Virus record (IMG/VR): IMGVR_UViG_3300049057_000126
Span: 1-20,201 of that record
Direction: 5' to 3' (one strand)
Origin: a virus
DNA length: 20,201 nt
A model generated the notes under the pieces. That model saw only the letters and a list, made by a program, of their open reading frames with translations. It had not been told where the DNA came from and searched no databases. A program made the translations under genes and the position numbers. Positions 1 through 20,047 of the stretch are shown here, piece by piece. Position 1 is the stretch's first letter. The number at the start of each line of letters is the position of its first letter.

Positions 1-3000
1 ATTATACCCACTTGGGCTTGAGTCGTTTCCGTTTGCTTCCAATCGGTAATAGGACTTTAGCGAACCGTCTGTTAGAAAACTGGAATTGAATATTTCTCTA
101 CCCGTACAAGCCCCGGAGCTTGGAGAAGCTGACGCCGATGGGCTTAAGCTCGCACTTGGGCTTAGAGAACTACTAACCGAAGAACTAGAAGACACCGAAG
201 CAGACGGAGAAACACTAGCCGAGGGAGATAAAGACCTACTGGCAGAACTGGAAGGAGACAGACTTGCCGATGGTGAGATAGAAGGAGACACCGACGCTGA
301 AGGAGATGCACTTGACGACGGACTTAAAGATCTGGATGCAGAGGCGCTTGGTGACAGAGAAGCCGAAGGGCTAAGTGATGGACTGGGGCTAACACTCGGG
401 GAAACGCTAGTGGACGGGCTTACTGATGCACTAGGAGAAACAGACGCCGAAGCCGAGGCACTAGGGGATACACTAGCGCTTGGGCTTAATGAAGCCGAAG
501 GGCTCAATGAAGGACTTACGCTAGTAGAAGGAGACTGACTTGCACTAGGAGACAAACTAGCGCTAGCCGAGCTGGACGGACTAGTTGAAGGTTGGCTCGA
601 CAAAATGCACAACTGCGGCTTATTAGTTCCATCAGCAAATTGAGCAAATACTTGTGCCGATTGACCGGAAACCCATGTCGGAGGAGAGTTGGTTCTATCA
701 CTTTCTAATCTAATGCCCAACTTTGTGATACCATTTTTGACTATAGCATTACGTCCTGCCGTATTTAGTGTAATTTCGTTATATTGACCAGTAACCAAAC
801 TGGATATTGATATAGGATCACTAAGTGCGGTAGTACCAAGCTGCGAGTAATCGGAGTTGGCCAGAGCAGTATTACTTGCTGGTGTTGCACCTACAACAAC
901 AATAGATTGTCCCGTTATACCCTCGGATTTACTGGTGACATAAATACTAACCTTTGCTACATCGATGTTGGCAGTATCGCTTAAAGCCGAGGTATCAAAG
1001 AGAAATACAGACCGGACTAGGAAATCCCAAAGATTTGTTGTAGTTCCAGCTCTTAGACAAGCTATTCTATCTGAAGCACCGCTATCTGACGCCCCGTTAC
1101 CTGCCCCACCTTGGATAGAACTCCAACTTTCCTCAGTAACAAATCTATATGCTACACCGTCAACACTAGTGCTTTCTGGGTTGGCGTCGGGGTTAAAACA
1201 TTCAAATCCTGCGGATGGACTAGCTGACGCTGATGGTGATAAGGATGCACTAGGACTCAAGGAAGCAGAAGACGAAGCGGAAGGACTCACGCTAGCCGAC
1301 GGACTGACACTGGCACTGGGACTTGCAGATCCAGAGGGGGACAAACTTGCCGAACTACTAGCAGAAGGGCTTATCGAGGCCGAAGGACTTTGCGATCTAC
1401 TAGCAGATGCGGACGGGGAAACACTAGCCGAGGGGCTAAGTGATGCCGACGGGCTTACCGAAGGACTAACTGAAGCAGAAGGCGATACTGAGGCGCTCGG
1501 GCTAAGAGATGCTGAGGCACTCGACGAAGGACTCAAAGAAGCCGAGGGAGAAACAGATGCCGAAGGGGATACCGAAGCAGAAACCGAGGAGCTAGGGGAC
1601 AAAGAGGCAGAAGGACTTACACTTGGAGATACACTGGACGATGGAGATGCCGATGCCGAAGGGCTCAAAGATCTACTTACTGAACTAGAAGGAGAGACAC
1701 TAGCCGAGGGGCTAAGTGACCCAGAAGGTGAAATAGACGGGCTAAACGAGGCCGACGGAGACTGGCTAGCACTTGGAGATAGAGATCTCGAAGCACTGGA
1801 AGAGGGGCTCGATGAAGCCGATGGCGAGATGCTAGCAGACGGCGACACGCTAGCAGAAGGTGACACTGACGCCGAACTTGAAGCACTCGGAGACACCGAA
1901 GCACTAGCAGATGAAGACGGGCTCACAGAAGCACTTGGACTTACACTTCCTGAAGGACTTAGGGATGCAGAAGGAGACAAGGACCGTGAAGCACTAGAAG
2001 ATGGACTAACAGAAGCGGATGCACTGGCCGAGGGAGACACACTAGCAGAAGGAGATAACGATCTGGAGGCTGAGGCAGATACCGAAGAACTAGGCGAAGC
2101 TGATGCGGAGGGACTCAAACTAGCACTAGGAGACAGTGAAGGAGAGACCGAAGAACTGGGACAAATTACAGCTTGGTAGTAAGTATCCAGGGTAGAAGTA
2201 GCACTTCTGGCTGTCCACGTACCTCCGGAATAGTCGAATAATCTAGATTTAGGGGCGTTATCAGTTGCACCAAATTGCCAGAGTGTTACATACTTTATAT
2301 TTGTTACCAGTCTGTCGATCGAGTCTATTATCCTGTGCAGAGCATCCGCCTGATTATATTGAGTTAATTGAATATATACACTAGGTCCAAAAGTTATTGA
2401 TTTTGGTCTGGTACTATGTGCTGTATTTATCCAGGTAGATATTTCGGTCTCAAACGAGGCTTGCATCTGAGCCGGAGTCGTGTCACCCGAACTTGGGTAA
2501 TTGTCCGTACCTAATATGTTTAAAAATGACGCAGTGGTGGTGGTGAGAACATCCTTTACCATCGACGGGCTACCGTGGACTATCCTAGTCTCAACACCTG
2601 TCACACTGTGATTAGAAAAAGCAGTTTCTACAACGGCAATCGAATCTGTAATGAAAGTGTTGAAAGCAGTTTTTCCAGCTCCAGATCCTATTGTTCCATA
2701 TGTAGCATCCCACATGGTATTGTTTTCTGCCTCATCTGGGATACATTCAAAAAAGTCTCCGGATTGAAATATTCCGTAGTTTGCTTCAATCCACGTAGTT
2801 AACTGATCTATGTGGTTCTGGGCAAAGTCCGATCCGGTGTACTGTGCTACTGAGTTCCTTCCCTGCCAATCATTAAACCCTGCCGATCTTACCTCCATCT
2901 TGTATCCAGCGTTGTGAATTGCAGTAGCCCATTTGGAGAACTGGTCGTTAGCTGACCCCGATCCATAATCAAAATACGGAGCTACAGCTATATGAGTGAT

Positions 3001-5295
3001 GTTGGGTACAGCGTTTACTAGCGCTGTAACAATAGCATTTATTTCTCCCTGAGTATTCGTGTGTGAATCAAGAGACTGACTTCCAATGTGTACGGCTCTG
3101 TATTCAATACAATTAGGAGGTGTAGAAGGACTAATAGAAGGAGAAACAGATGATGAAGGACTAACACTTGCGGATGGGGATAACGAAGCCGAAGGACTCA
3201 AAGAGCTAGAAGGACTTGTGGAAGCTGATGGACTTAAAGATCTGCTACCCGATGCAGAAGGGGAAGCGCTAGCTGATGGACTAAGCGATGAAGACGGAGA
3301 TAAGCTCGACGAAGGAGAAGTAGATGGGGATCCAAGGTCCAAAGTTGAAGAAGAATTATCTGTACTACCGTCCCAAGCACCTCCTGTGAAACTACCATCA
3401 AAAAAGCTCTTAACAGTGGAACCCAGTTCCCATAAAACCCCGTCTGCATAACAAGTTACTACACTCACACTAGCCAAACGTAGTCCCGCAAACATATTGC
3501 TGCCGCCAGAGTTGGTAACAGTAATACTGTATCTAGTCCAACTAGACGTCAAAGTAATAGTACTACTATATTGATCTACAGAACCGTCATAACACCAAAG
3601 TTTAAGGTCTCCAGAACCTTTTAAGTAAACGGAGAAGGTATATTGTTGACTGGCGATAGGTAAAGACCCCCAGTCCTGAAAGTTTAAGTATATCCTGTCA
3701 TCTGTAGCCGCTGCCGTAAATTTCAAAGATTTTGTTCTATACAAAAATTCTGTAGCATCTTGTGCTTTAGCTGCTGTAGCACCACCGGTAGCCCAATACA
3801 AATCGTTAGTCTCCATACTCGGATTCATAGCAAAGTTTCTTCTAATAATATTATCTGAAGAAGGGCTTGAAGATGGCGACAAAGAGGCAGAAGGGCTTGC
3901 GGAAGCAGAAGAGCTGGCCGAAGGAGATAAGGAACGAGATGCACTGGCAGATGGACTAAGCGAAGCTGAAGGAGACAGAGAGGCACTGGGGCTAAGACTT
4001 GCTGACCCTGCGGCAGCGGGATCAAATATAGCCCATGCCAAAGCTCCGTTTTCCCCATCCACCGACCCGGTACATGTGATAGTTACGGTTCCCGCTGTCG
4101 ATCTTGTTGCTGAAGTAAAACGAAAAACACCTGCATCCTCATCAACATTTTCAGTAGCATTAGCCCACGTTTTTGTTTCCGGATCACTTTGACAAGAAAC
4201 TATACCTATAAATCCACCTCCTGAAGGTATAGTTATCGATCCGGTTGTCACTGGGTCGGTGGCATCCATATCCGTAGACGTATCTGTGCCTGCGGATGAG
4301 AAAGTTAGACCCGTTGCCCTGTACACAGCTATATGGTTTTGTGTGGCAAGTGGGTTTGTAGAGCCAAATGTAACCTTCACGGTAGCAGTTGTCCCAGTTG
4401 GAACATTCAGATAATACAACCTCGAATAATTATTCGGGAATGAAGCAGCGGCTGAAGCTGCGGTCATAGCGGTATCGCCGGACCCGTAATCTATGGTACA
4501 TGCGGTCGGTGCGGAGTCTAGTAGCTCTGTACCAATAGCAACTATGATGGTGCGATCACTCGCTGCGGTTCCAATAGCTACATTTGAGTAGGTTGCGATA
4601 TTAGAAGAGGCGGCTACTCCTGCGGGACTCACCATTAAATCTATTGGTGGGGTTGTAGGGGTGCCTGGATCAAAGATAACCCATGACATAGCGCCGTCTT
4701 CTGTGTTAGTACCCCCCGTACAAGTTCTTGTTGCTGTCCCTGCTGTAGTACTAAGAGCTGTTGTGAACTTAAAAGCTCCCGCATCGGCATCTATATCCTC
4801 AGTTAGGTTTGCCCAAGTTTTATCAACTGTGTCATTCTGACAAGATGCAACTGCCAACATTGCGCCGTCTGTAGGGATGGTTGTCGATCCAGTGGTTAGA
4901 GGCTGGGAGGCATCCATATCCGTGGATCCGTTCGAGCCTTGCGAGTTTAAAACGTCTGATGCTCCTGTTACTTTATAAACCGCTATGTGGTTTTGTAAAT
5001 CAGTTGGACTAACTGCACCAAATGTAACCTTTATCTCGGCTGTGGTTCCTGTGGGGTAGTATCTATAAAATATTTGGACGGATTGATCCCCAAAAGTAAG
5101 CGCTGACCCCCCATACATAGTAAAACCATCTATAGTACATGCAGTCGGAACACCTGAAGCTAACTCAACACCAACAGCAACAACAACAATTCTATCTGAC
5201 GCTGCTGTACCAATGGAAACACTTGAATATGTTGCTACTGTTGAAGAAGCGGAAACTCCTGCGGGATTTGCTGTTTGGGAAATTGCTACAGCCAT
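1..5295 (-). CDS. Giant modular tail-fibre/adhesin-like protein, 3' end outside window
   Basis: One reading frame runs from ATG 5295 to base 1 with no stop, giving at least 1765 residues; an in-frame TAG lies directly before the ATG. Modules by residue: two tandem homologous beta-rich repeats (about 9-209 and 223-425; shared [24 protein letters not shown] and IFDP motifs and three conserved Cys positions); SPS linker 430-480; CBM4/9-like jelly roll 481-655 ending in a FDG..GGAWDG..NSSS motif; linker 656-725; TIM-barrel hydrolase-like domain 726-1045; linker 1046-1362; DNRLRE/CBM96-like beta domain about 1363-1565 ([14 protein letters not shown]); linker 1566-1727; then the start of a LamG/ConA-like domain ([11 protein letters not shown]). 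No signal peptide or membrane segment is seen. The carbohydrate-binding modules and phage context suggest receptor binding and perhaps glycan cleavage at the virion tip; domain names rest on pattern recognition only. A secreted or surface-anchored protein is the alternative. Confidence 0.85.
115..600 (-). repeat. SPSAS linker 4 of the giant protein
   Basis: Residues 1566-1727 continue the Ser-Pro-Ala pattern ([21 protein letters not shown]) between the second beta domain and the LamG-like domain that starts at the window edge. Serine codons are again mixed. Confidence 0.9.
1210..2160 (-). repeat. SPSAS linker 3 of the giant protein, about 317 residues
   Basis: Residues 1046-1362 are built from six-residue units of the type SPSAS plus V, L, A or S (18 bp per unit), with repeated SRSLSPSAS punctuation that puts an Arg in an otherwise uncharged stretch. 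Ser is encoded by all six codons in mixed order, so the DNA is not a clean tandem repeat although the protein is highly regular. This is the longest linker visible in the window. Confidence 0.92.
3121..3330 (-). repeat. SPSAS linker 2 of the giant protein
   Basis: Residues 656-725 form a Ser/Pro/Ala-rich linker with alternating Ser, Leu and Val at the variable position, one [10 protein letters not shown] interruption and the ending [10 protein letters not shown]. It separates the jelly-roll domain from the TIM-barrel-like domain. Confidence 0.9.
3856..4008 (-). repeat. SPSAS linker 1 of the giant protein
   Basis: Residues 430-480 of the giant protein are almost only Ser, Pro, Ala and Leu, with Ser at every second position ([12 protein letters not shown] units) and one SRSLSPSAS interruption. 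It joins the second beta repeat to the jelly-roll domain. Such stretches are expected to be extended and disordered, and resemble O-glycosylated linkers. Confidence 0.9.
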
Positions 5296-5383: not shown

Positions 5384-6310
5384 TTAAACTATTCTACAGT
5401 CTAAGCCCTGCCAATCAATACTAAAGTCGATCCATTTTATTCCGCTATCAGACATTATATTTTTAAAAGCTGGCTGTTTTCTAGGAGGAACTAAAAACAT
5501 GATGTGTCCTCCACCTCCAGCTCCTAGCACTTTACCTGCAATCGCACCGTTTTTGTACCCAAGTTCGTATATCGCATCTATGGTGTCATTAGTAACACCC
5601 TTTGCAGTTTTCTTTTTTACTTCCCAGCTCTCTCTAAGTAATTTTCCAACCTGAGCTATGTTTCCTCTTTTGATAGGTTCCAGAGATTCTAATGCTATGA
5701 ATTTCAATCTATTCATGGATTCCACCCTTTCCATAGTGAGATTGTCATACTCTTTTAATATCTTAGAGGCAACCCGGCTTGTACCTAAATAGAATAATTG
5801 TATATAAGGTAGCAGCGTAGAAATGAATTCTCTCTCTAATGGAAAAACGAATGTTTTATCAGAAAATGCCATGTAGTTTACCCCACCGTGTACTGCACAA
5901 TATTGGTCTTGTCTGCCACACAAAAGGCCGACTTTTTCTATTTCCAATTGTCTTGCCCGTTCTGCAATCTCTGCAAGTGTCATATTAAGTCCACAATAAT
6001 GATTTACAGCACCGACTAAAGCTACTGCTAAAGCTGCACTGGTTGAAATGCCTGATCCTATCGCACCATTGAACTCATGCTTTACGCCAAAATTGTTGCC
6101 AGGGCACATATTATCCAATATTGCATGGAAAAAATCGGGATTATCTTGAGGTAATAACTCCCATTGGTTATCATCATTAAGCAAGATTCTTTGCTTGATA
6201 TTTATGGCCATGTTGATACAAATACCTCCGTGTTGTGTCGAGTAGGGGGGTACATCGGTAGAACCACCAAATAGGGAGATTCTACAAGGGGCCTCAGCTA
6301 ATACCTTCAT
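5384..6310 (-). CDS. GHMP-family sugar kinase, HddA-like (heptose-phosphate kinase type)
   Basis: Predicted to phosphorylate a sugar or sugar phosphate with ATP in the cytoplasm; the closest recognised type is D-glycero-alpha-D-manno-heptose 7-phosphate kinase. The 308-aa protein has the N-terminal APCRISLFGGSTD substrate motif (residues 7-19), the GHMP phosphate-binding loop GAIGSGISTSAA (82-93), GRQDQYCAVHGG with the likely catalytic Asp135, and a C-terminal GAGGGG loop (263-268). I chose ATG 6310 because its A overlaps the preceding stop as ATGA and the family motif begins seven residues later; the longer in-frame start at 6367 would add 19 unconserved residues inside the upstream gene. 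Last gene of the sugar cassette. Exact substrate is inferred; a fucose or galactose kinase-like role is possible. Confidence 0.85.
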   Translation of the reverse strand: MKVLAEAPCRISLFGGSTDVPPYSTQHGGICINMAINIKQRILLNDDNQWELLPQDNPDFFHAILDNMCPGNNFGVKHEFNGAIGSGISTSAALAVALVGAVNHYCGLNMTLAEIAERARQLEIEKVGLLCGRQDQYCAVHGGVNYMAFSDKTFVFPLEREFISTLLPYIQLFYLGTSRVASKILKEYDNLTMERVESMNRLKFIALESLEPIKRGNIAQVGKLLRESWEVKKKTAKGVTNDTIDAIYELGYKNGAIAGKVLGAGGGGHIMFLVPPRKQPAFKNIMSDSGIKWIDFSIDWQGLDCRIV

Positions 6311-7926
6311 ATAATCGCCTGTAAATCGTTCCAGCCTTCTATATTGTAACCTTCTGTTTCTATCCAATTCCTTGTATATTTTTTGTTTCTGAATTCCTCT
6401 TTAGTCCATCTCTGACCAGTACCGTTCTTGCCGTGTTTTACATCCACATTCGGGTAGTCTGATTTCCATGTAGCCATTGGCCAAGTTTTCTTGTAATGTA
6501 TTCTCCCATGAGTCATTGGCTCAAAACCCATATCCCTACTAAACCCATCTCTTTGAATAATCTCGAGTCTTTCTCTGAAATGTTCGAGGGCTATATCCCT
6601 ATAAACACACAGTCCGGATACCTGATTAACATCATAGTGAAGAGCATGACCATCAGATGCTCTTAGCATCCAAACATTGTCGTTATAATAGAAAGTATCC
6701 CGTTTTGGAGGTGTGAACAGGAAATGAGAGGGGTGGTATAAAACATCGTGCTCACAGAAAAATACAACGTCGGTTGTACTATTTTCTAGTGCCGCAATAA
6801 TCTGCTTAGTATAGGTTTCCCAACCCCTTTTAAGAGAGGGGAAATGAATATTCTTGTCTCCAAAATCCATCTTTTTCAACGAAGCACTCACAATCGGAAG
6901 TCCCGAGGCTTTTATCAGATCTTGAACAGTTTTCATGAGTTTGAGGTCTAGTTCGTTGTCTGTGTAATAAATAATTCCTTTGGTGGGTTCTTTTTCTCCA
7001 GACTCGCTTCTTTTTAATCTTTCCAGATCCTCATCAGTCCATCCTTTAACTGGCCAGAAATGTTCTACTAACCATGATAAGGGCTTTTTAGCTTTAGGCC
7101 ATTTGTTATTAAAAAACAAATCTTTAGCATGAGCTTTGGCTCTAGCCACCTGATTTCCAGACATTTTATAAGGAAAGCTGAAATCCCCACCTTGAGTTCT
7201 GAACAAGTGTGCATACCAGGTCTTATGATTAACCATTACTTTTCCACCTGATAGCCATGTCTTGCAAGCCACCTCTATACCTTGTGACCCCCAAGAGCCA
7301 AAGGATTCATCAGATAAACCCAACTCCCAATATTTGTCTCTAGTACACATAAAACATGACCCCTGAAGAGACATAGTTTCGGTAACTTCCCCCTGTCCTT
7401 CAGGTCTTTTATTCCATTCTCCGAAATACTGAAAATGTGGCGTAGAATCGAAACAGTAAGAGACACTATTGGGGCTTTTTTTGGCTATCCAAACAACATC
7501 CTTGGTAGTGGGTTTTCCACATTCTGTACATGGACCACTGGGACCTTGATATCTCCTGTGTCCATCAGGACATACCCAATCAAAAGCGTGTAGATTTTTC
7601 ATTAATGGGGCCATAGTCCAATCGTCATGCATTTCCGCCATCATTTTGGAATCAAATCCCTTATCAAAAGCACAATGGGCATCCACTTTCATTATGTATT
7701 TAGCCTCACTCATCTCAACAGCTCTATTGGTTGCAGCACGTTGCCCGATACTCTCCTCAAAAGCTAATACTCGTACCCTTTTATCTTGTGGTAAGGGGTA
7801 CATCGAGTCCGCTCCATCTAAAACAACAATGACCTCGGTTTCTCCTTCTATGGTGCGCAATATGTCCTGAACAGTGCGTGCTAGAAATTCCTCGTTTCTA
7901 CTTGGTATAACTATACTTAGATCCAT
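6307..7926 (-). CDS. Two-domain glycosyltransferase: GT2 domain plus a second GT-A-like domain
   Basis: Predicted to transfer sugar from a nucleotide sugar. The N-terminal GT2 domain (about 1-290) starts SIVIPSRNE, carries the DxD-equivalent DAH at 82-84 (KVDAHCAFDKGFD) and a WGSQGIEVACKTW motif at 212-224, resembling the acceptor region of polypeptide GalNAc transferases (family W-G-x-E-x-x-E type). An insertion at 117-138 has Cys119, His123, Cys133 and Cys136 and may bind zinc. The C-terminal part (about 316-539) begins GIIYYTDNELD and contains VVFFCEHDVLYHPSHF, with EHD at 392-394 as a possible metal site; I recognise this type from phage and metagenomic proteins but cannot name its activity. 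It is paralogous to the GT2 genes at 11531 and 12824. It sits 54 bp after the methyltransferase gene and overlaps the kinase start. The acceptor is unknown. Confidence 0.85.
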   Translation of the reverse strand: MDLSIVIPSRNEEFLARTVQDILRTIEGETEVIVVLDGADSMYPLPQDKRVRVLAFEESIGQRAATNRAVEMSEAKYIMKVDAHCAFDKGFDSKMMAEMHDDWTMAPLMKNLHAFDWVCPDGHRRYQGPSGPCTECGKPTTKDVVWIAKKSPNSVSYCFDSTPHFQYFGEWNKRPEGQGEVTETMSLQGSCFMCTRDKYWELGLSDESFGSWGSQGIEVACKTWLSGGKVMVNHKTWYAHLFRTQGGDFSFPYKMSGNQVARAKAHAKDLFFNNKWPKAKKPLSWLVEHFWPVKGWTDEDLERLKRSESGEKEPTKGIIYYTDNELDLKLMKTVQDLIKASGLPIVSASLKKMDFGDKNIHFPSLKRGWETYTKQIIAALENSTTDVVFFCEHDVLYHPSHFLFTPPKRDTFYYNDNVWMLRASDGHALHYDVNQVSGLCVYRDIALEHFRERLEIIQRDGFSRDMGFEPMTHGRIHYKKTWPMATWKSDYPNVDVKHGKNGTGQRWTKEEFRNKKYTRNWIETEGYNIEGWNDLQAII

Positions 7927-7980: not shown

Positions 7981-8535
7981 TCATATCTTATGCTTAATTG
8001 CAGTTATAGTATTGTATCTACTAAGACCACCGTTATCCACGAATTTAATATCGAACCCATAATCTTTTAAGTCAAAAGTAACCACTTTGTTTGTGAGTGT
8101 TCCGTCCGACTTGGCGTTCCAGAAGTGTCTATATCCTGTGTCTAACTGATTCAAAGAGCAGTGTATATATACCCAACCCCCTGGTTTACATATACGAATC
8201 ATTTCCTTGACTGCTTTTTCTGCGTTTCTGGTGTGATCTAGTGCGTTCAAACAATGTACAATATCAAAGTAATTATCTTGATAGGTTAAATTTTCCATGT
8301 CTTGCTGCTCAACCGAAATAACAGAAGTCATCTCACGTTTCTCCCAAAATTCACGGAAGTCCTGTCTATCACAATAAGTCATCTCTACCTTTACGTCAGG
8401 TAAATAAGATCCGATAACGGAATACGGGCCAGACCCTATATCTGCTATCTTGACTTCCTTTTTTTCTCCAATCAAGGGTCTGAAGTACTCTCTTAAAGGC
8501 AGGGGTTTATTAAACTTTATATAATCTCTAACCAT
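7981..8535 (-). CDS. Class I SAM-dependent methyltransferase (Methyltransf_11 type)
   Basis: The 184-aa protein has motif I KIADIGSGPYS (29-39), an acidic post-I region ending in YCDRQD, NYFDIVHCLNALDHT (88-102) as the motif IV area, and KPGGWVYIH (117-125) after motif V. This is the core of small-molecule and sugar methyltransferases. The substrate cannot be told, but the position between a sugar epimerase (8-bp overlap) and glycosyltransferases suggests methylation of a sugar or glycan, such as a cap that ends chain growth. The length is short for the family, with an N-terminal extension of about 28 residues before motif I. It is not closely similar to the other two methyltransferases of the cassette. 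Confidence 0.85.
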   Translation of the reverse strand: MVRDYIKFNKPLPLREYFRPLIGEKKEVKIADIGSGPYSVIGSYLPDVKVEMTYCDRQDFREFWEKREMTSVISVEQQDMENLTYQDNYFDIVHCLNALDHTRNAEKAVKEMIRICKPGGWVYIHCSLNQLDTGYRHFWNAKSDGTLTNKVVTFDLKDYGFDIKFVDNGGLSRYNTITAIKHKI

Positions 8536-9514
8536 GACTAACCCCTATGGTTGCCTCGATAGTCCTTTTTAAACCTTCATCAAGTCCTATGTTTGGTACA
8601 AAATTAAGTAGTTGTTTTACCTTATTCATATCAGCAAGCGTGTAAGAGGGTTCAAAAACCGGTGGAATATACATAGGTAAGATCTCTTTATTCATTTGTT
8701 TACAGATCATTTTAAATAAATTATTTATTGAGATATTGTCCCCAGATCCAGCGTTGAATACCTCCCCATACGTGTCACATGTGGACGCTAGATACATAAT
8801 CTCCACTGTGTCATCTACGTATATAAAATCTCTTTGTTGTTCTCCGTCTCCAGTAATGATGGGTTGCATACCTTTACTTATTAGATCAATGAACTTAGGC
8901 ACAGCTCCAGCATACACGCCGTTTGGGTTCATCCTGCTACCGTAGACATTAAATGGTCTTATGGAATTAACTTGTAAGTCGTGAAGTTTTTCAAATAATT
9001 TAGCATGTAGTTCCCCCTCAAACTTGTTTAAAGCGTAAGGGCACATAGGGTTTGGGGTATCTTCTTCTCTTGCAGCTCTACCTTCATCCTGTTGCCCATA
9101 GACTGAAGAACTAGATATGAATACCACTCTTTTTACCTTATTATCTTTGCAATGATTAAAGACGTTAATTGTACCCTCTACATTAGTTCTACAAGCTTCT
9201 GCAGGGTATAAAATAGACCATTGGGGACGAGTTAATGCTGCTAAATGGAACACTACATCTATGTCTCTAAAATACTTACTAATTGATGGGTCCATTATCG
9301 AAGCTTCGTATACAGTAAGTCTAGGATCTTGAGGTAAATTAGCCCATTTACCCTCGGAGAAATCATCAATGATTATTATTTTGTCTTCACTGACTTTAGC
9401 GGTTTTTCCACTATTAGACTCCAATACAGTTACTTTATTGTCAGATTCTCTTAGCAGCCTTTCGATTAAATGCGACCCTATAAAGCCTGCGCCGCCTGTT
9501 ATTAAATAATTCAT
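8528..9514 (-). CDS. NAD-dependent sugar epimerase/dehydratase (extended SDR family)
   Basis: Predicted to act on a nucleotide-activated sugar in the cytoplasm. The 328-aa protein has the NAD-binding TGGAGFIGSHL (6-16), the conserved VVFHLAAL segment (87-94), SSSSVYG (134-140) with the catalytic Ser/Thr, and the active-site Tyr160-x-x-x-Lys164 in PYALNKFEGE. The segment around 190-200 (RPFNVYGSRM) and GDGEQQRDFIYVDD are typical of UDP-glucose 4-epimerase and dTDP-glucose dehydratase-like enzymes. Length is normal for the family. Whether it epimerises, dehydrates or decarboxylates cannot be decided. It starts just downstream of a methyltransferase (one base between stop and start region) and overlaps the next methyltransferase by 8 bp. 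Probably supplies a nucleotide sugar to the neighbouring glycosyltransferases. Confidence 0.9.
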   Translation of the reverse strand: MNYLITGGAGFIGSHLIERLLRESDNKVTVLESNSGKTAKVSEDKIIIIDDFSEGKWANLPQDPRLTVYEASIMDPSISKYFRDIDVVFHLAALTRPQWSILYPAEACRTNVEGTINVFNHCKDNKVKRVVFISSSSVYGQQDEGRAAREEDTPNPMCPYALNKFEGELHAKLFEKLHDLQVNSIRPFNVYGSRMNPNGVYAGAVPKFIDLISKGMQPIITGDGEQQRDFIYVDDTVEIMYLASTCDTYGEVFNAGSGDNISINNLFKMICKQMNKEILPMYIPPVFEPSYTLADMNKVKQLLNFVPNIGLDEGLKRTIEATIGVSHG

Positions 9515-9515
9515 A

Positions 9516-10046
9516 TTATGAATTCCATTTCTTATTAAAAAACCAACTAATACCTTCCTGCGGTTCCCTGGTCACCTGAAGGGTAAGAGAGTGTTCCTTT
9601 ATGTATCCGTCTACTGCCGTTATAACGGCAACATTACGATTCACATAATCATGGCCCGCCACAATACCGCCCTTTCTTACTTTCCTAGTCCAGAATATTA
9701 TGTCTAGCATAGCATCATCAAAGTCATGCCCAGCATCTATATAAACAAAATCCAATGAATTATTTGCAAATCCCTTAACGGCGTCCATACTATAATTCTT
9801 TATAATCTGCGTGTTATAACCGGAAAGCCTGTCTTTAGCTTTCTCCATCCACTCTATTTTCATGTTTCTACTCTCGCCAGCCCCCAAATCCCAAATATCT
9901 ATACAGTAAAGCTTTAAATCTTTTATCTGTTCGCACAGGACTACAGAGTAATTTCCGTAAGCTACGCCTATTTCAGCGCCTACTTTATAGCCTCGGTCAT
10001 TAAATGACCTCGCTAATTCTGTTCTATCATATATTTTAATATTCAT
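9516..10046 (-). CDS. Class I SAM methyltransferase, Methyltransf_24-like (copy B)
   Basis: The 176-aa protein carries GAEIGVAYGNYS (23-34) as motif I, LYCIDIWD (46-53) as the acidic strand-2 end, SLDFVYIDAGHDFDDAM (97-113) and GGIVAGHDY (126-134). This arrangement is seen in sugar O-methyltransferases of the Methyltransf_24/macrocin type, where the D-x-G-H and G-H-D-Y histidines and acids bind metal; this supports a metal-dependent O-methyltransferase acting on a sugar hydroxyl, although the substrate is inferred. ATG 10046 lies 11 bp inside the upstream gene and is preceded by AAGGA. It is a paralogue of the gene directly upstream (shared GAEIGV, SLDFVYID, GGIV.GHDY, AVDGY), so the pair probably arose by tandem duplication and divergence. 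Confidence 0.85.
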   Translation of the reverse strand: MNIKIYDRTELARSFNDRGYKVGAEIGVAYGNYSVVLCEQIKDLKLYCIDIWDLGAGESRNMKIEWMEKAKDRLSGYNTQIIKNYSMDAVKGFANNSLDFVYIDAGHDFDDAMLDIIFWTRKVRKGGIVAGHDYVNRNVAVITAVDGYIKEHSLTLQVTREPQEGISWFFNKKWNS

Positions 10047-10653
10047 TATCTTCCTTTATATAAAACCAACTAGACCCCCCATTACCGTTTGCCAAGAATA
10101 AGTTCTTTATGCCATTATCTTTGCAATACCCATCTACAGCGTTACTAACGTCTGCTCTTCGTTTCCCGTGTGATTTCCAGTTATAATCGTGTCCACTTAC
10201 TATTCCCCCAGTCCTAACTTTCCGGGACCATTCCCTGATGTCCTCTAACACATAATCGTGTTCGTGGTTACCATCTATGTACACAAAATCCAAGCTATTA
10301 TCCTCGAAATCTTTAACAACACCCATACTAGACCTTTTTATTATTTGACAATTATAAGGCGCTAGTCGTCTGGTAGTAATCTTATAATTCACGTCCAAAT
10401 AATGCTGCTCTTTCATATCAGGATATGCGGAATACACCTTCCATGGATCTATACAGTATAACTTAACTCCGGGATTGGCCATACACATATCCAGGGAAAA
10501 ATAGCCTTTATCTACCCCAATTTCTGCCCCGGTTTTAAATCCCAACTCTTTAAACAAATTAGCTAATTCTTTTCTGTTTATCCCGAGTCTTATTGGGTAT
10601 TTATCCCCGTCAAACGTGTATTTCTGTGATATGTATTTATGTGTATCAATCAT
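10036..10653 (-). CDS. Class I SAM methyltransferase, Methyltransf_24-like (copy A)
   Basis: The 205-aa protein has GAEIGVDKGYFS (42-53), LYCIDPWKVY (65-74), SLDFVYIDGNHEHDYV (120-135) and GGIVSGHDY (149-157): the same fold and probable metal-dependent O-methyltransferase activity as its downstream paralogue, with an N-terminal extension of about 20 residues and a longer middle segment. I chose ATG 10653 because it overlaps the upstream stop as ATGA and has a strong Shine-Dalgarno sequence (GGAGG, embedded in the last codons of the upstream gene). The in-frame ATG at 10680 would add nine residues fully inside the upstream gene. The second copy with altered substrate region suggests methylation of two positions or two sugars. 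Confidence 0.85.
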   Translation of the reverse strand: MIDTHKYISQKYTFDGDKYPIRLGINRKELANLFKELGFKTGAEIGVDKGYFSLDMCMANPGVKLYCIDPWKVYSAYPDMKEQHYLDVNYKITTRRLAPYNCQIIKRSSMGVVKDFEDNSLDFVYIDGNHEHDYVLEDIREWSRKVRTGGIVSGHDYNWKSHGKRRADVSNAVDGYCKDNGIKNLFLANGNGGSSWFYIKEDNEY

Positions 10654-11531
10654 AGATATTTCCTCCAGTCTTCCGGCCAAGTTGGCATAGGCATGAATTT
10701 ATCAATGAACCACTCAAAATCATGTTTTCTTTGTTCCCATTTATTATTTACCCAGTAATCAGCTGCTATGTGGTAGGAATACTCGTTTTGATCATTAGTA
10801 AATCTATACCCCCTGTCGTGTTGTTTACCTTTATGCATGTGGGCGTAGTTACAATCTTTATTAACCATGACCTTACCTCCCCCAAGCCACGCCTTAAGGC
10901 CAATATTTGCTGGCTCTTGGGCGTGTCCCAACGGGTCTACCTCAGGAAATCCGCCTATATCATTTAGGAAATACTCTTTACTTACAAACCAACCAGAACC
11001 ATGAAACTGAGGTGTTTCGTCAACATGGGGATGACTTTCTAGTCGTTCTTTAGTCAATTCCGGCCAGTGACCACCAGCTTTAAATCTAAACCCCCTAGGG
11101 TCGGTGAAGGGGCAAGACAAATAGAAATAATCATAGAATCTGTCGTCCTGCCATTTCCACGTCTTCTCGTTTAAAACGTAGAATCTAGGCATAACTACCC
11201 AATTATCCTCCATGTTCATCTGTAACACTTCGTCTATTCCTTGACTAAACATACAATGTCCGTCAGATTTGAATATGTACTTACCCGAGGCTTTAGTGGC
11301 TAACTCGTTTATCATAGACTTTATGCCACCGGGTGTGTCTCTTTTTATTGTACTTACTCTACTGTCATTTGGAAGTTCCTGAAAAGGCTGGCCGTCGAAA
11401 CCCACAATTACCTCGATGTCTCCGGTGCATTTTTCTAGAATATCCTGTACAGTTCTCTGCAACACCGTGACGCCCGGAGATACCTCAGATTGTTCAAATC
11501 TACTTGGAATAATAAAAGATACTTTACTCAT
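10650..11531 (-). CDS. GT2 family glycosyltransferase
   Basis: A 293-aa single-domain GT-A enzyme. It begins VSFIIPSRFE, continues through ILEKCTGDIEVIVGFDG (31-47), and has the DxD-equivalent SDGHCMFSQGID at 89-100. The acceptor-side region contains the GSGWFVSKEYF strand, the AQEPANIGLKAWLGGGKV segment and NYAHMHKGK, matching motifs of the other two GT2 genes. No membrane segment is present, so it is cytoplasmic or peripheral. The start ATG overlaps the stop of the SIS gene as ATGA, and the end overlaps the methyltransferase start, implying translational coupling. Its sugar donor and acceptor are not known. The A-Q-E-P-x-x-I-G-x-K-x-W segment is the equivalent of the G-x-E-x-x-E acceptor loop of polypeptide GalNAc transferases. 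Confidence 0.88.
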   Translation of the reverse strand: MSKVSFIIPSRFEQSEVSPGVTVLQRTVQDILEKCTGDIEVIVGFDGQPFQELPNDSRVSTIKRDTPGGIKSMINELATKASGKYIFKSDGHCMFSQGIDEVLQMNMEDNWVVMPRFYVLNEKTWKWQDDRFYDYFYLSCPFTDPRGFRFKAGGHWPELTKERLESHPHVDETPQFHGSGWFVSKEYFLNDIGGFPEVDPLGHAQEPANIGLKAWLGGGKVMVNKDCNYAHMHKGKQHDRGYRFTNDQNEYSYHIAADYWVNNKWEQRKHDFEWFIDKFMPMPTWPEDWRKYL

Positions 11532-11941
11532 AAGCTTTTAGGTCCTAGTAATTTTACAGTTTCATGTAATACGTCCAAATGCTGGGTTTCCATATCCTCA
11601 TAAGTTCCTTTTCCACCAAACAAAGAAAATATATTAATGTGATGTTTCATTACTTCTAAAATGTTAGGGGACGTTCCACTACAGGAGATGAGTACAACCA
11701 AATCATAGGGAGAACAAAGCACGTCTAATTGCTTACTAAAAATGTATCTGTATCCATAATCGTTGGCGATCATAGTAATTACAGATACATTGCTATTAAG
11801 GCAAATTGCTTTAATTCTTCTGGATAAGAGATCGTTAGTGAAGTGCTCAGCTGTTGCTGCACTACCACCGTTACCACCAACAAACACAGTCCCGCCAATA
11901 GCGTGTGTCTTTCTTATTGCTTTAGCTAATTCTTTATCCAT
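11528..11941 (-). CDS. Short SIS-domain sugar isomerase, GmhA-like
   Basis: Resembles sedoheptulose 7-phosphate isomerase (first step of heptose synthesis). Visible family motifs are GGNGGSAATAEHF (22-34), TMIANDYGYRYIFSKQL (56-72), ISCSGTSPNI (85-94) and a C-terminal H-x-x-x-L-H helix (121-125), matching the GmhA active-site helix. The protein is 137 aa, against about 190 for Escherichia coli GmhA: the N-terminal helical region is absent and the loop before the last helix is shortened. The E-E-L of GmhA appears as N-D-L (36-38), so a catalytic Glu may be replaced. It may still be active as an oligomer or may have a changed role. It lies between two GT2 genes with 8-bp and 4-bp overlaps. Together with the HddA-like kinase it points to a heptose pathway. 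Confidence 0.8.
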   Translation of the reverse strand: MDKELAKAIRKTHAIGGTVFVGGNGGSAATAEHFTNDLLSRRIKAICLNSNVSVITMIANDYGYRYIFSKQLDVLCSPYDLVVLISCSGTSPNILEVMKHHINIFSLFGGKGTYEDMETQHLDVLHETVKLLGPKSL

Positions 11942-12824
11942 GTATTACCCCCATACTAACTAGTTTCTCCTTCCAATCCGGTGTCCATGTAGGCATACCG
12001 GGGAATTTATCTTCAACAAACCACTGTATACCGTGAATGATTCCGGGTTCTTCGTCACTCATCCAGTGTTTAGCAGACCAGTTATGACTAGATACTGTAT
12101 TAACATCCTGTTTGTACATACGACCATATCTTTTACCCTTGTGTAAATGAGCGTAGTAAGTCTTCTTGTTTACTTTAACTGCTCCGCCCTTTAGCCAGTA
12201 CTTCATACCTATCTCCTGGGGTTCCTGGGCGAACGTAGAGTAGGTTTCTACTCGGTCGTCCATATATCCTACCTTTTCCATGAAATAATCTTTATTTGCA
12301 AACCAGCAAGACCCTTGGAAACTGGGAGTATCGTCAATATCAAATTCGGGTTTTCCCATACGTTCTCGAGTTCTTTGAGGCCACTCAACCCCGTGCATCC
12401 CCCCATCGTGGTCTTTATCGGGATAGGGACAGCATAGATAATGATAATCTCTTGGACCTTTGGGATTATTCTCAACGGACCAATTCTCAGCGTCCAATGA
12501 ATATCTTCTTGGTATAACAAGCCAATCTCTTTGGGTGTTTTCCTTTAGTATCCTATCAAATCCCTGAGCAAATAAACAATGATCATCAGTCTTCATTATG
12601 TATTCACCCTTAGCAATAGATAAACACGCATTAATACCCGCTCGCATACCGACTGGTTTTTCTGGGAATAAATAAGTTACTCTTTTATCTTCTAATATTT
12701 CGTTGGGTTTATTTTCGTCTACGTTTACTAAAACCTCTATATCTTCTACTGAGTTATTTAGTAGATCTTGAATAGTTTTGGTTAAAAAAGGCGAATTCCT
12801 ATTTGGGATGATTACACTAAGCAT
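11934..12824 (-). CDS. GT2 family glycosyltransferase
   Basis: A 296-aa GT-A enzyme starting LSVIIPNRNSPFL, with the DxD-equivalent YIMKTDDHCLFAQGFD (75-90; Asp80, Asp81), a GSCWFANKDYF strand (171-181), AQEPQEIGMKYWLKGGAV (199-216) and YYAHLHKGKRYGR (223-235). These blocks align with the GT2 gene at 11531 and with the first half of the gene at 7926, so the three are paralogues. The start is supported by a strong Shine-Dalgarno sequence (GGAGG, 6 nt before ATG) lying inside the end of the HNH gene, with which it overlaps by 8 bp. Donor and acceptor are unknown. The resemblance of the E-P-Q-E-I region to polypeptide GalNAc transferases is suggestive only. Confidence 0.88.
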   Translation of the reverse strand: MLSVIIPNRNSPFLTKTIQDLLNNSVEDIEVLVNVDENKPNEILEDKRVTYLFPEKPVGMRAGINACLSIAKGEYIMKTDDHCLFAQGFDRILKENTQRDWLVIPRRYSLDAENWSVENNPKGPRDYHYLCCPYPDKDHDGGMHGVEWPQRTRERMGKPEFDIDDTPSFQGSCWFANKDYFMEKVGYMDDRVETYSTFAQEPQEIGMKYWLKGGAVKVNKKTYYAHLHKGKRYGRMYKQDVNTVSSHNWSAKHWMSDEEPGIIHGIQWFVEDKFPGMPTWTPDWKEKLVSMGVIHG

Positions 12825-13305
12825 CTTTTTCCTCCAAATAGTCGGCCATACGCCTCAATAGTTCTGGAGAATCGAAAGCAAAACCTAGGGCGCAATTGCA
12901 GTCGCTACATAGCAGGCCTCTTATCTTCCCCGTCCTGTGGCTATGATCCACATTAGGATTGTTATTAAAGGCCTTATTACACACTAAACACTTGTTGCCC
13001 TGTTTTTTACTAATAGTGCGAAAAGTCTCACCATCTATACCGTATTTCCTAAGTCTTATCCTGTCTAATATAGACTCACGATTCTTGTGATAACTTCTTC
13101 TGGCTCTTTTTCTCTTTACTTCAGGGTTTATTTGTTGTTCTTTTTCGTAATACCCCTTGACCTTATCTTTATTCTTGGCAACCCACGCCTTTTTATACAG
13201 GTACAACCTTTCTCTGTTCTTTTCTCTATATTTCTTTGAATATTCCTTACTATTTCTGGATTTTAGTGGGACTTGGTTGGGAATTATGACAGTAAGTAAC
13301 GACAT
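12817..13305 (-). CDS. HNH endonuclease, endonuclease VII-like
   Basis: The 162-aa protein has a C-terminal recombination-endonuclease-VII type HNH fold: zinc ligands Cys106 and Cys109 (CLVC), then VDHSHRTGKIRGLLC (119-133) with the Asp-His catalytic pair, and CSDCNCALG (133-141) giving the second Cys pair and the conserved Asn137. The preceding region (about 18-90) is very basic and helical, as usual in this family. The first 12 residues (MSLLTVIIPNQV) do not fit an HNH protein and instead match the start of the GT2 gene that follows (MLSVIIPNRN). Small HNH genes of this type are common free-standing mobile genes in phages. A role in Holliday-junction processing at packaging is possible, but the position inside a sugar cassette favours a homing-type element. 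Confidence 0.88.
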   Translation of the reverse strand: MSLLTVIIPNQVPLKSRNSKEYSKKYREKNRERLYLYKKAWVAKNKDKVKGYYEKEQQINPEVKRKRARRSYHKNRESILDRIRLRKYGIDGETFRTISKKQGNKCLVCNKAFNNNPNVDHSHRTGKIRGLLCSDCNCALGFAFDSPELLRRMADYLEEKDA

Positions 13306-13659: not shown

Positions 13660-14445
13660 TTAGAAACTTGGTGACGCTGAAGGCGACAATGAAGCTGAAG
13701 CTGAAGGGCTCGGTGAAGCTGATCTAGATGCTGATCCCGATGGGCTTCGTGAAGCACTACTGGAAGCCGATGCCGACGCTGAAGGCGATAGTGAGCGACT
13801 GGCTGAAGCTGAAGGCGACGCCGATCCCGAAGGTGATGCTGAAGCTGAAGGACTGATAGACGTTGATGCTGAAGGACTAATAGATGTAGAAGCCGACGGC
13901 GATGTAGACGGAGACTCCGATAGACTTCTGGATACTGATGCCGAAGGAGATGCGCTACTAGACGGTGATACCGATCTACTTGTTGATCCAGATGGTGAAC
14001 CAGAGGCCGATGGTGAAACACTGACTGAACCTGAAGCACTTGCCGATTTACTCACCGAACTCGACGGGCTGGCTGATGCAGATGGAGACACTGAAGTAGA
14101 TGGCGACTGAGATGCGGAAGGAGATTGGCTTGCTACTACAGTAGACCATGTAGCTGAATTCTCATTTCCATTATTGTAGTATCTTCCCGAATTAGTTGCA
14201 TTCTTTTTAATAAATAGAGCACCCTTTTTAAATCCAGAATCACCGTTAGGTACAGTATTTCCAGCACCTATAACAATTCTATTGTGATCATCTCTTAGAA
14301 TGACCTCGTTCCAAAGATATGGATCGAGAGCAGTCAAAAAGTCTGTCTCTGATTGTTTTCTTAGATTGGCTGGAATAGCGAGTATTCTGTCCATTTCGGC
14401 CTGTGTCTGTCCAGATAGTTGTGATTTTAGTTTAAATAATGCCAT
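13660..14445 (-). CDS. Small virion-like protein with long C-terminal SPSAS tail
   Basis: A 261-aa protein in two parts. Residues 1-105 form a compact domain: a helical segment (about 10-40), then a beta-rich part with [22 protein letters not shown] and [17 protein letters not shown], a pattern like the short glycine- and aromatic-rich beta modules of phage head-decoration and tail-associated proteins. Residues 106-261 are a Ser-Pro-Ala repeat of the same style as the linkers of the giant protein, ending at a plain Phe stop with no domain after it. The ATG follows the capsid gene by 54 bp containing a strong hairpin. Position next to the capsid gene suggests a capsid-associated protein with a disordered, possibly glycosylated surface tail. 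No close function can be named. Confidence 0.8.
13663..14130 (-). repeat. C-terminal SPSAS repeat tail of the head-adjacent protein
   Basis: Residues 106-261 alternate Ser with Pro, Ala, Val, Thr, Leu or Gly ([26 protein letters not shown]). The composition and six-residue rhythm are the same as in the giant protein's linkers, but this copy ends the protein instead of joining two domains. Confidence 0.92.
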
Positions 14446-14499: not shown

Positions 14500-15597
14500 T
14501 TAAAGCTTTCCGTATAATTCTACGAGAGCTTTGCGTCTTTCATCAGGTACTTTAGCACCATACACGAACAAAGATTTGTATGCCTTGCCAAAGTTACCAA
14601 TTAGATCTTCTGTACCATTCTCGGTCAGACCCATTGCAAAACAAATTGCAGATTTGTGTCCACCCAAGATGTGATAACCATTAACACTGTCACCGGCAAT
14701 TCTTGCGTCCGATACTTCAAAGATATCGAAACCCACGAATTGTTTAGACAACATTCCGTTTAGTACACTATCACGTCCTGATTCAGAACCAATAGCTACG
14801 TATTCAGGGGCTTGTCTTATTAAAGCAGCAATATTGGAAGGAACAACTAACCATCGATTGTCTTCTGGGATTTCCTGATTGGTCAATTGTGCAGCCATTT
14901 GACTGACATACTGGAAGACATTGCTCTTAGTAATCTGTACTGCGGTATTTGCTTGGATAACATATGTTGCTCCAGCTCCAATAGCACCACCAGTGTATGC
15001 TGAAGTCAAATCATCACTGTCATCTTCAATTACGATAGATGTAGTTGAGTTGAAGGTCTTAATTCTGTACCAGGTAGTATGACCGGAAGCCTTAAAAGAC
15101 TTACCAACCATTCCTGAAGTGAATGTAGTACCTGAACCAGTTACAACACCTGTGGTTACATCAACTGTAACTGTACCTGTGGTGTAGTCAGTACCGATAT
15201 GATTTCCTGCGCCAACTTCAGTCCAGAAACCCAAGACATACTGATCAACGACTTTTTTAAGTTCGTTGGCCACTTGGTCTAAAATGGTTCCTTCTGGGGA
15301 CTTAATGTAAGAGCGGAATGTATCCCAAGATTTAATTCTAAAGTAGAAGTACTTGGCCTGATCAGTAACCAACTGTGCATTGCTTTCCGTCAAATCATCG
15401 ACGGTCATATTAGCACCAGTGTAGTTGTGAGATAGGATTGCTCCGAAAGTTAATACGTTTAATACAGAGGTTTTGTCTCTGATTTCGCCTTCATAATCAT
15501 TATTAGTGATCATAGGTGCGACGGCCTTTCGATAGAATATTTTTATAGTGGAAGCTGCGAAGGCTTCTGCTAACTTAGTTGGATAGGCGTTTGCCAT
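14500..15597 (-). CDS. Major capsid protein, HK97-fold type with beta-rich insertion
   Basis: The 365-aa protein forms the icosahedral shell. It sits directly after the scaffold-like gene and has its own strong promoter and a good ribosome site (AAGGA, 4 nt before ATG). The order of elements fits an HK97 fold: an N-terminal arm and strand (about 1-60), the long helix region EGTILDQVANELKKVVDQYVLGF (102-124), and late P- and A-domain segments RWLVVPSNIAALIRQ (248-262), GFDIFEVSDA (289-298) and GGHKSAICFAMGL (312-324). Residues about 138-215 (GTVTVDV, VTGSGTTFTSGMVGKSFK, WYRIK, GAGATYVI) look like an inserted beta-sandwich module of the G-x-G-T-x-F-x-x-x-x-V-G-K type seen in various phage virion proteins. 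The identification rests on context and sequence style rather than on a named family. Confidence 0.85.
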   Translation of the reverse strand: MANAYPTKLAEAFAASTIKIFYRKAVAPMITNNDYEGEIRDKTSVLNVLTFGAILSHNYTGANMTVDDLTESNAQLVTDQAKYFYFRIKSWDTFRSYIKSPEGTILDQVANELKKVVDQYVLGFWTEVGAGNHIGTDYTTGTVTVDVTTGVVTGSGTTFTSGMVGKSFKASGHTTWYRIKTFNSTTSIVIEDDSDDLTSAYTGGAIGAGATYVIQANTAVQITKSNVFQYVSQMAAQLTNQEIPEDNRWLVVPSNIAALIRQAPEYVAIGSESGRDSVLNGMLSKQFVGFDIFEVSDARIAGDSVNGYHILGGHKSAICFAMGLTENGTEDLIGNFGKAYKSLFVYGAKVPDERRKALVELYGKL

Positions 15598-16738: not shown

Positions 16739-17055
16739 ATTGACGGTTTGGCTTTGATGTCTACTTTAGCCAAAGCTTTCTCTAAGGCTTCTCTGGCCTG
16801 TTTAGGGGTATTGAGTACCTTTTCCAGTAGTATGTAATTCTTAAGTCTTGCTTTCAGCACGTAGTTTCGTTCATCTTTTGATGGTAAATCTGCCAGTTCT
16901 TCGGCTACACCATTTTTCATCTTAGTGATACCTTCTCTGAAATCCTCCAAGGACATCTGTCTAACCTCTAAGTTCTTCATCCATTGCTCATAGGTTTCTT
17001 TTTCTGCATAATTTAGATCTTCTATTTTTATGTCTTTGAATTCGTTTATTCTCAT
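16735..17055 (-). CDS. Small helical protein after the portal gene, function unknown
   Basis: A 106-aa charged, mostly helical protein: EQWMKNLEVRQMSLEDFREGITKMKN in the first half and LKARLKNYILLEKVLNTPKQAREALEKAL in the second, with heptad-like leucines that could form a coiled coil. Its ATG overlaps the portal stop codon as ATGA, so it is probably translated by coupling with the portal. No domain family is recognised. A portal-associated or head-assembly role is possible only by position. Confidence 0.75.
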   Translation of the reverse strand: MRINEFKDIKIEDLNYAEKETYEQWMKNLEVRQMSLEDFREGITKMKNGVAEELADLPSKDERNYVLKARLKNYILLEKVLNTPKQAREALEKALAKVDIKAKPSI

Positions 17056-18847: not shown

Positions 18848-20047
18848 CTACCAACCTACTCCACCAAATTGAGACATTACAGGTCTATCCTTAAATCTTT
18901 TAGGATCAACAGGTGTGTATCCTGCTGGCTTGTAGTCAATGAATTTACTACCCATGCCATACCTTAGTGCATCCATCATATGGTTAAACATTGGAGATGG
19001 TTCGTTTATGATTTTACCCTCTTTGTCTGTCATCCAGAAATAATTACGGTATTCTTTGATCATATTGACACTACGCTTGGTCATGGATATTTGTTGACTT
19101 CTTAGGTACTGAATACCCTGATTAACACTCCCCGTGCCTTTTGTAGAGCCTGTAATAGTTATTCCGTACTGATGTAACTCGTCTATACTCTTAGGGTCTG
19201 CCGAATCCGCTATAACCAGAGCTTTAGGTTGGGATAAGAGGAAATCAGCGATTTGTTTGTTACTTAGACCCTTCTGATACAAAATTTCGTCAAAAATGTA
19301 TCCTCCGTTATACTCATAAATGGCTGCACAGGCTGTTGGATCGTTTGAGTATCCAAAGTCTAATCCGTAACTTACAAGTTTTGCCTCAAAAGGTATTGAT
19401 TCGATAATTTGCCAACCTGTATATATCTGGCCTTCTACCTCACCTAGTAATCCTTCACCGTATACTCTCCACCAAGCGGTATTTCTTTTATGACTTTCTA
19501 GAGCTTCTATTTCTTGTTTGGATAGTGCTTCATTGTCTTTATAGGTGAGTATCAGGAAATCGTGCTGTGTATAGGGAGCGACATCTGTATACCACCAAAA
19601 CTCTTTGGTTGGGTTCCAATCCAGCCAAATTATTTTCCTAGTACGTATTTCTAATTGGGTAAATGTCTCATAAGGTACATTATTTGCTTCGTTGATGAAT
19701 AATAGATCACGTCTAGGACCTTTAACTTTCTCGTACTGGTCAACTGAAAAGAACTCAAGTCTTGTACCTGTCTCGAATGTATATATAAAGTCTGATCTAT
19801 TCCACCTATCGTCATTGTAGTATCCCTGTGTCTCCATAATAGAGAGAAAGTCTCTCATAGCACCACGTTTGAGGTGTGGGAGAGACTCTGACACCACGGA
19901 TATTATTTCCGATTTGTGTGTTTGAGCATAAGCAATTAACCATATCAATATAGATATAGTTTTTGATGCAGAAGCTCCACCCGATACAGCTCTAATTCTG
20001 CTATATAGATTCTTTATTTTCCTCGTGCTTGTCGTCTCGTAGAACAT
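18848..20047 (-). CDS. terL: Terminase large subunit (PBSX/Terminase_3 type)
   Basis: This ATPase-nuclease motor cuts concatemeric phage DNA and pumps it into the prohead. The 399-aa protein has a Walker A-like loop GGASASKT (23-30), which lacks the usual Gly before Lys, a Walker B LLFINEAN (115-122) in which Asn-Glu replaces Asp-Glu as in the PBSX family, and a coupling region around WLDWNPTKEFWWY. The RNase H-like nuclease domain shows GLDFGYSNDPTA (Asp230), VIADSADPKSIDEL (Asp281) and FNHMMDALRYG (Asp359), giving the three metal-binding acids. Length is slightly short but normal for this type. The start overlaps the end of the preceding small terminase-like gene by 47 bp. The family call is strong on the nuclease and N-E motifs. 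Confidence 0.95.
   Translation of the reverse strand: MFYETTSTRKIKNLYSRIRAVSGGASASKTISILIWLIAYAQTHKSEIISVVSESLPHLKRGAMRDFLSIMETQGYYNDDRWNRSDFIYTFETGTRLEFFSVDQYEKVKGPRRDLLFINEANNVPYETFTQLEIRTRKIIWLDWNPTKEFWWYTDVAPYTQHDFLILTYKDNEALSKQEIEALESHKRNTAWWRVYGEGLLGEVEGQIYTGWQIIESIPFEAKLVSYGLDFGYSNDPTACAAIYEYNGGYIFDEILYQKGLSNKQIADFLLSQPKALVIADSADPKSIDELHQYGITITGSTKGTGSVNQGIQYLRSQQISMTKRSVNMIKEYRNYFWMTDKEGKIINEPSPMFNHMMDALRYGMGSKFIDYKPAGYTPVDPKRFKDRPVMSQFGGVGW

Follow-up and report, generated by a model that had tools for sequence, protein, structure and literature searches.

We analyzed IMG/VR virus record IMGVR_UViG_3300049057_000126 over its whole length of 20,201 nucleotides (nt), a stretch that we refer to as the window. 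Its left end is occupied by a gene for a giant, fibre-like protein in which globular modules alternate with linkers that carry Ser at nearly every second position (SPS linkers). Next to this gene lies a cassette of sugar-related genes that includes three glycosyltransferases of family GT2 (GT_a, GT_b and GT_c), and a second protein with such a Ser-rich stretch is encoded among the head genes. Our interpretation, to which we assign a probability of roughly 0.6, is that through these genes the phage encodes its own mucin-like O-glycosylation system, which adds sugars to the SPS linkers of the fibre and head-adjacent proteins. The observations behind it are the sequence, the gene order, the similarity of the enzymes to family GT27 together with its metal-site residues, and the repeated co-occurrence of linkers and glycosyltransferases. 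Coordinates are collected in Table 1.

The giant fibre gene and its SPS linkers

The minus-strand frame begins with ATG at position 5295 and runs through 1765 codons to position 1, where the record ends, without meeting a stop. The remaining five frames of the same DNA contain 41-145 stops each, and G+C content by codon position has one coding-like phase over the entire frame. The single uninterrupted frame that was proposed in an initial annotation of this DNA is thereby confirmed. That annotation had named an assembly join within positions 1-5295 as something that would refute it; such a join through the repeats is unlikely, and we rejected a chimera of this kind, given that the longest exact DNA repeat in these 5.3 kb is 23 nt.

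Counting alternate positions, the four linkers are 86-98% Ser. In linker 3 the figure is 98%, compared to 55% in shuffled sequences (maximum 64%). No two of the 84 overlapping SPSxSx units are spelled alike in DNA, yet together they encode only 22 peptides, and Ser codons of the TCN and AGY classes are intermixed. Because the DNA is varied, the peptides are few and repeats do not exceed 23 nt, the linkers are not the product of recent slippage, and an assembly join is an unlikely source of them. Judging from these codon patterns, the SPS peptide pattern is most likely held by selection. The existence and approximate places of the linkers agree with the initial annotation, but its lengths of 51, 70, 317 and 162 residues are revised by our threshold to those in Table 1. 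An open reading frame of 404 amino acids (aa) at positions 965-2179 on the opposite strand overlies linker DNA, whose composition most likely accounts for it.

The modules between the linkers lie roughly where they were first placed. The N-terminal pair, R1 and R2, are 52% identical, and R1-type modules are likewise N-terminal in fibre-like proteins of L083-L086. The DNR-type module is related to parts of phage fibre-like proteins in L035, L037, L087 and L122. The truncated last module weakly resembles the start of the LamG fibres of L100/L102-type proteins; the first SPS fibres of L100 and L102 begin with a LamG domain according to Pfam. Modules of the R, LamG and DNR types are thus shared with fibre-like proteins of other viruses. 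The R module is also found in records without family GT2 glycosyltransferases (GT2), followed by TSTSTS linkers (L103:379-1851) or by other domains (L108:7287-8885). Fibres of two different phages (L104:734-2800 and L108:7287-8885) have alike C-terminal peptides, VKDVIGVGIIPFKR and VKDLIGMGFIPFAR.

Some of the proposed module identities fared less well. The all-beta module at residues 486-647 resembles a carbohydrate-binding module (CBM) by eye only, and our search found no relative of it; a CBM is at most a candidate assignment. The TIM-barrel-like module at residues 731-1041, proposed to be a hydrolase, has no viral, phage or PDB relative and no Pfam or PHROG match. A sub-threshold match in register to DUF4874 (E 0.13) and a low-confidence model leave the hydrolase assignment unproven, and the independently moving binding heads of the initial annotation are likewise hypothetical. 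The AlphaFold model of fibre residues 1-1041 has a mean predicted local distance difference test (pLDDT) score of 45.7, and was therefore used for secondary-structure classes only.

The whole protein matches no known fibre family in PHROG or Pfam. Its probable identity as a fibre or adhesin-type phage protein, already proposed in the initial annotation, is instead supported by its context: synteny with structural genes (it lies downstream of TerL, portal, scaffold, major capsid protein (MCP) and head protein) and the lectin modules of its relatives. The layout had been thought unusual, yet it is no isolated case: in 17 of 62 loci, the SPS protein that comes first on the downstream side of a GT_a-type glycosyltransferase is at least 1000 aa long.

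Table 1. Features of the window (positions 1 to 20,201; residues refer to the giant fibre)
Feature	Position	Strand	Residues	Remarks
TerL	18848..20047	-
Portal	17052..18812	-		by synteny and conservation; no PHROG match
MCP	14500..15597	-		lineage marker
Head-adjacent protein	13660..14445	-		conserved 100-aa domain and bare SPS tail to the C-terminus; no C-terminal domain
HNH/endonuclease VII-like	12817..13305	-		between head genes and sugar cassette
GT_c	11934..12824	-		GT27-like glycosyltransferase
SIS isomerase	11528..11941	-		GmhA-like, below cut-off
GT_b	10650..11531	-		GT27-like glycosyltransferase
Two methyltransferases	9516..10046 and 10036..10680	-		Methyltransf_24
Sugar epimerase/dehydratase	8528..9514	-		NAD-dependent
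Methyltransferase	7981..8535	-		S-adenosylmethionine (SAM)-dependent
GT_a	6307..7926	-		GT27-like; GT-A domain and conserved C-terminal domain
GHMP sugar kinase	5384..6310	-		HddA-like, below NCBIfam cut-off
Giant multi-module SPS fibre	1..5295	-	1-1765	at least 1765 aa; no stop within record
R1, all-beta module	4660..5295	-	1-212	N-terminal
R2	4012..4659	-	213-428	second R copy
SPS linker 1	3841..4011	-	429-485	about 57 aa
All-beta module	3355..3840	-	486-647	CBM-like by eye only
SPS linker 2	3106..3354	-	648-730	about 83 aa
Alpha/beta module	2173..3105	-	731-1041	TIM-barrel-like
SPS linker 3	1207..2172	-	1042-1363	322 aa
Beta module, DNR type	613..1206	-	1364-1561
SPS linker 4	106..612	-	1562-1730	about 169 aa
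Start of LamG/concanavalin-like lectin module	1..105	-	1731-1765	probable; truncated at record end

Gene order in the window and in related records

Every gene in the window reads on the minus strand. The order is TerL, portal, a small protein, scaffold, MCP, the SPS-tailed head-adjacent protein and the nuclease gene. The cassette follows, running from GT_c through the SIS isomerase, GT_b, two methyltransferases, the epimerase, the third methyltransferase, GT_a and the GHMP kinase to the giant fibre. The initial annotation ended its account at the fibre gene; to us the neighbouring glycosyltransferases are what matters most. A like order, with head genes, SPS head protein, cassette, SPS fibres and further genes of structural size, is found in relatives G001, G003 and G016. 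In L100 and L102, GT_a directly adjoins the first SPS fibre, with gaps of 18 and 37 nt, respectively. The cassette of L102, a close relative, additionally contains a radical SAM/SPASM gene (L102:13533-14324, minus strand).

The nearest matches of TerL in named phages are Flavobacterium psychrophilum phages, at 45.5% identity, and the MCP and fibre are without a close named relative. An internal segment of the MCP (residues ~138-239), taken alone, weakly matches tail-fibre PHROGs, and also matches parts of proteins in the Patescibacteria contigs L238 and L239.

Glycosyltransferases resembling GT27 enzymes

We built profiles from alignments of GT_a (A1) and of GT_b and GT_c (A2), and compared them to the PDB using hmmsearch. 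For both profiles the best matches are eukaryotic polypeptide N-acetylgalactosamine (GalNAc)-transferases of family GT27 (E 6.5e-13 for A1 and E 2.4e-12 for A2), and general GT2 enzymes rank behind them. Enzymes of family GT27 act on Ser and Thr residues of proteins. GT_a, the sole glycosyltransferase that was modelled, yielded an AlphaFold model with pLDDT 82.7, and the best 50 Foldseek matches listed for this model are all GalNAc-transferases. TM-scores of 0.35-0.41 for the full two-domain model are modest, and the alignment covers about 290-340 of 539 residues, so that the match is mainly to the GT-A half of the protein.

The invariant residues D82-x-H84, W212-G213 and H240 of A1 align with the DxH, WG and HxFR sites of GT27, and the metal-site ligands of that family (DxH and the distal His) are thus kept. 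Among the best 80 viral relatives of GT_a, KxDAH is present in all 80 and HxFR in 79. Residues ~315-540 of GT_a form a second conserved domain with a EHDVLYHPSHFDF-like motif; in some relatives this domain is missing or is a separate gene.

Co-occurrence of SPS linkers and glycosyltransferases

We compared the distributions of linkers and enzymes in three ways. With the MCP as lineage marker, 52 rows (51 relatives and the window) had enough downstream sequence. The presence of an SPS tail agrees with that of GT2 in 50 of these (Fisher 1.6e-12, a value that overstates the evidence because the MCP tree needs few switches). In loci with GT2 the head-protein domain is followed by an SPS tail, whereas in loci lacking GT2 the same domain has another C-terminus, and the two characters differ among close MCP relatives (L004-L009 versus L011-L019). 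This count of head-protein tails used a looser Ser/Pro mask than the later tests, and the split of the MCP set by GT2 is the same under both. In L050, which disagrees, the contig ends with extra genes and the cassette is not reached. The sole GT2-positive, SPS-negative MCP relative, L030, encodes a GT2-methyltransferase fusion (L030:3264-4412) that differs from the cassette GT2.

In the forward direction, a DNA pattern for SPS gave 27 records with real linkers and 50 control records with chance matches. GT2 scores over the cut-off in 15 and 4 of these, respectively. One of these four GT2-positive controls (G093, identical to L302) was later reclassified as SPS-positive: it encodes a 1295-aa SPS protein directly after GT_a. 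Among records of at least 20 kb, GT2 is present in 9/12 versus 4/23 (Fisher 0.002). The set had been selected for lack of an MCP relationship within the loci fetched; three of its nine GT2-positive records nevertheless turned out to match the window-type MCP, strongly in G083, clearly in G079 and weakly in G071.

In the reverse direction, relatives of GT_a are encoded by 514 viral contigs, and we used the best 80 of these loci, which come from one search and include near-duplicates (e.g., L257-L259). An SPS-linker protein is encoded in 72 of the 80, compared to 0/52 chance loci and 0/20 MCP relatives without GT2. Of these loci, 68 have 1.5 kb or more of downstream sequence, and in 32 of them an SPS gene starts within 150 nt, versus 63 of 878 for other genes. 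Just 15 of these 80 show the window-type MCP within the fetched stretch. At least seven records in which no window-type MCP is detectable (G064, G066, G067, G075, G076, G082 and G093) also display the association. A glycosyltransferase gene beside a Ser-repeat gene is therefore conserved across lineages, as in a dedicated adhesin glycosylation locus.

Host

Scanning genomes with the MCP yielded nine loci, and several of them lie in Patescibacteria bins. However, the bins are mixed (Acidobacteriota, Woesebacteria, Paceibacterota and unnamed bins), and we rejected host assignment from MCP relatives alone for this reason. In a Woesebacteria metagenome-assembled genome (MAG), contig L235 carries the SPS head protein and cassette, with an SPS gene following GT_a in L320. 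Relatives of GT_a are present in 6 of 380 genomes of this MAG's phylum (the starting genome included), versus 0 of 396 in a comparison phylum (p 0.014). GT_a and an SPS protein are together on three of the five other contigs (L331, L332 and L333). These are probably phages of Patescibacteria, but MAG contigs may be phage contigs binned with hosts, so the host stays a lead.

Proposed function and alternative explanations

Under the proposed glycosylation system, the structural acceptors would be the linkers of the giant fibre and the tail of the head-adjacent protein. The GT27-like enzymes of the same cluster, predicted to be cytoplasmic, would attach sugars directly to SPS serines. The donor would probably be an activated sugar of the heptose or a related type, produced by way of the SIS isomerase, GHMP kinase and epimerase; a heptose-like sugar is suggested by the GmhA-like and HddA-like genes, which score below curated cut-offs. 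The attached sugar might then be methylated by the cassette methyltransferases. We infer that sugared linkers would act as a shield and as stiff, protease-resistant stalks that space lectin and other binding modules on the virion.

Several points weigh against this interpretation. No glycan has been observed. The set of donor genes in the window is incomplete, with no HddC-like nucleotidyltransferase seen and with both the GmhA-like and HddA-like genes under their cut-offs. A Pfam scan of the three window enzymes did not find the ricin-type lectin domain that is usual in GT27. The MCP tree needs about three switches, of which two are well supported; both agree with the association, for a sign test p of 0.5. 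L030, a partial contig of 4.5 kb, has GT2 without visible SPS linkers, and L084/L104 carries SPS linkers with no GT2 within its 16-kb partial record. Finally, the 80 GT_a loci stem from a single search and contain near copies.

An alternative is that the cassette alters the host surface, so as to block superinfection or promote adhesion to hosts, and that SPS linkers co-occur with it through shared hosts, probably Patescibacteria. Phages are known to use glycosyltransferases in this way, Patescibacteriota phages carry O-antigen sugar genes and ConA-like lectins that have been read as host-helping (PMC12911398), and the difference in GT_a frequency between phyla makes the host a possible confounder. 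Against it, GT_a lies beside the SPS gene much more frequently than other genes do, and SPS and GT2 vary even between the close MCP relatives noted above. Moreover, the window's cassette proteins have no membrane helix (maximum 19-aa hydropathy below 1.8), no carrier-lipid genes, membrane partner or flippase were seen in the window, and the targets of GT27 enzymes are Ser and Thr residues of proteins. We consider this explanation unlikely.

Slightly less probable still is that the linkers are unmodified, disordered spacers and that the cassette hitch-hikes with fibre genes in a variable region. The few independent changes behind the MCP-tree contrast are compatible with this idea, as are the TSTSTS linkers that accompany the same R module in L103, whose 16-kb fragment has no GT2. 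Hitch-hiking accounts poorly for the separately placed head-adjacent protein, whose SPS tail likewise comes and goes with GT2, and for the recurrence of the association in records without a detectable window-type MCP. That the glycosyltransferases instead modify phage DNA is very improbable, and we rejected it. Viruses are known to encode glycosyltransferases by which DNA is hypermodified (cited in PMC12619734), but a gene of the thymidylate-synthase/hydroxymethylase family (PF00303) was present in none of 41 records, many of them partial and 31 with SPS linkers, and this role would leave the SPS association unexplained.

Relation to known systems and implications

Serine-rich repeat glycoproteins of the Fap1/GspB type have long Ser-alternating repeats, and dedicated glycosyltransferases are encoded near them. 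Unlike the phage fibre, these proteins are exported bacterial adhesins. In staphylococci, glycosylation of Ser-Asp (SD) repeat adhesins by SdgA/SdgB protects against proteolysis (PMC3794999, which also names Fap1). The analogy to these loci is one of layout: a Ser repeat lies beside a binding domain, and dedicated glycosyltransferases adjoin the adhesin genes. However, the staphylococcal adhesins are bacterial cell-wall proteins with SD rather than SPS repeats, and are not multi-module mosaics. GT27 and mucins are similar in that the phage enzymes match GT27 best in both sequence and fold, its metal-site residues are kept and the candidate acceptor is Ser/Pro-rich. They differ in that the enzymes here are phage-encoded, lack the ricin domain and have about 20% identity to GT27, with a putative acceptor and donor.

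Glycosylation of phage virions is already known from mycobacteriophages (Freeman et al. 2023, as cited in PMC12619734 and PMC10955285). Those phages likewise encode glycosyltransferases, and their sugars are described as sitting at the C-termini of capsid and tail tube subunits (PMC12619734); the citing passages mention no long SPS linkers or GT27-like enzymes. At E 1e-5, a search of 50,697 named phage records produced no relative of GT_a or GT_b and none of the SPS head protein. Our literature search, whose coverage is incomplete, found no paper on GT27-like enzymes or SPS linkers of phages. What is new, as far as we found, is the coupling of SPS linkers to a set of GT27-like enzymes.

A broader proposal is that hundreds of uncultured phages, many probably of Patescibacteria, carry self-contained mucin-type O-glycosylation for decorating the SPS bristles of their heads and giant fibres; to us the odds of this appear about even. 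If the proposed system is real, mucin-type sugar stalks evolved in, or were acquired by, phages of bacteria. It would also provide GT27-like enzymes that are prokaryotic and have natural candidate acceptors of Ser-Pro type. Finally, the sugar and lectin genes of Patescibacteria phages that are now called host-helping (PMC12911398) would become virion-glycan genes, a reading that is testable.

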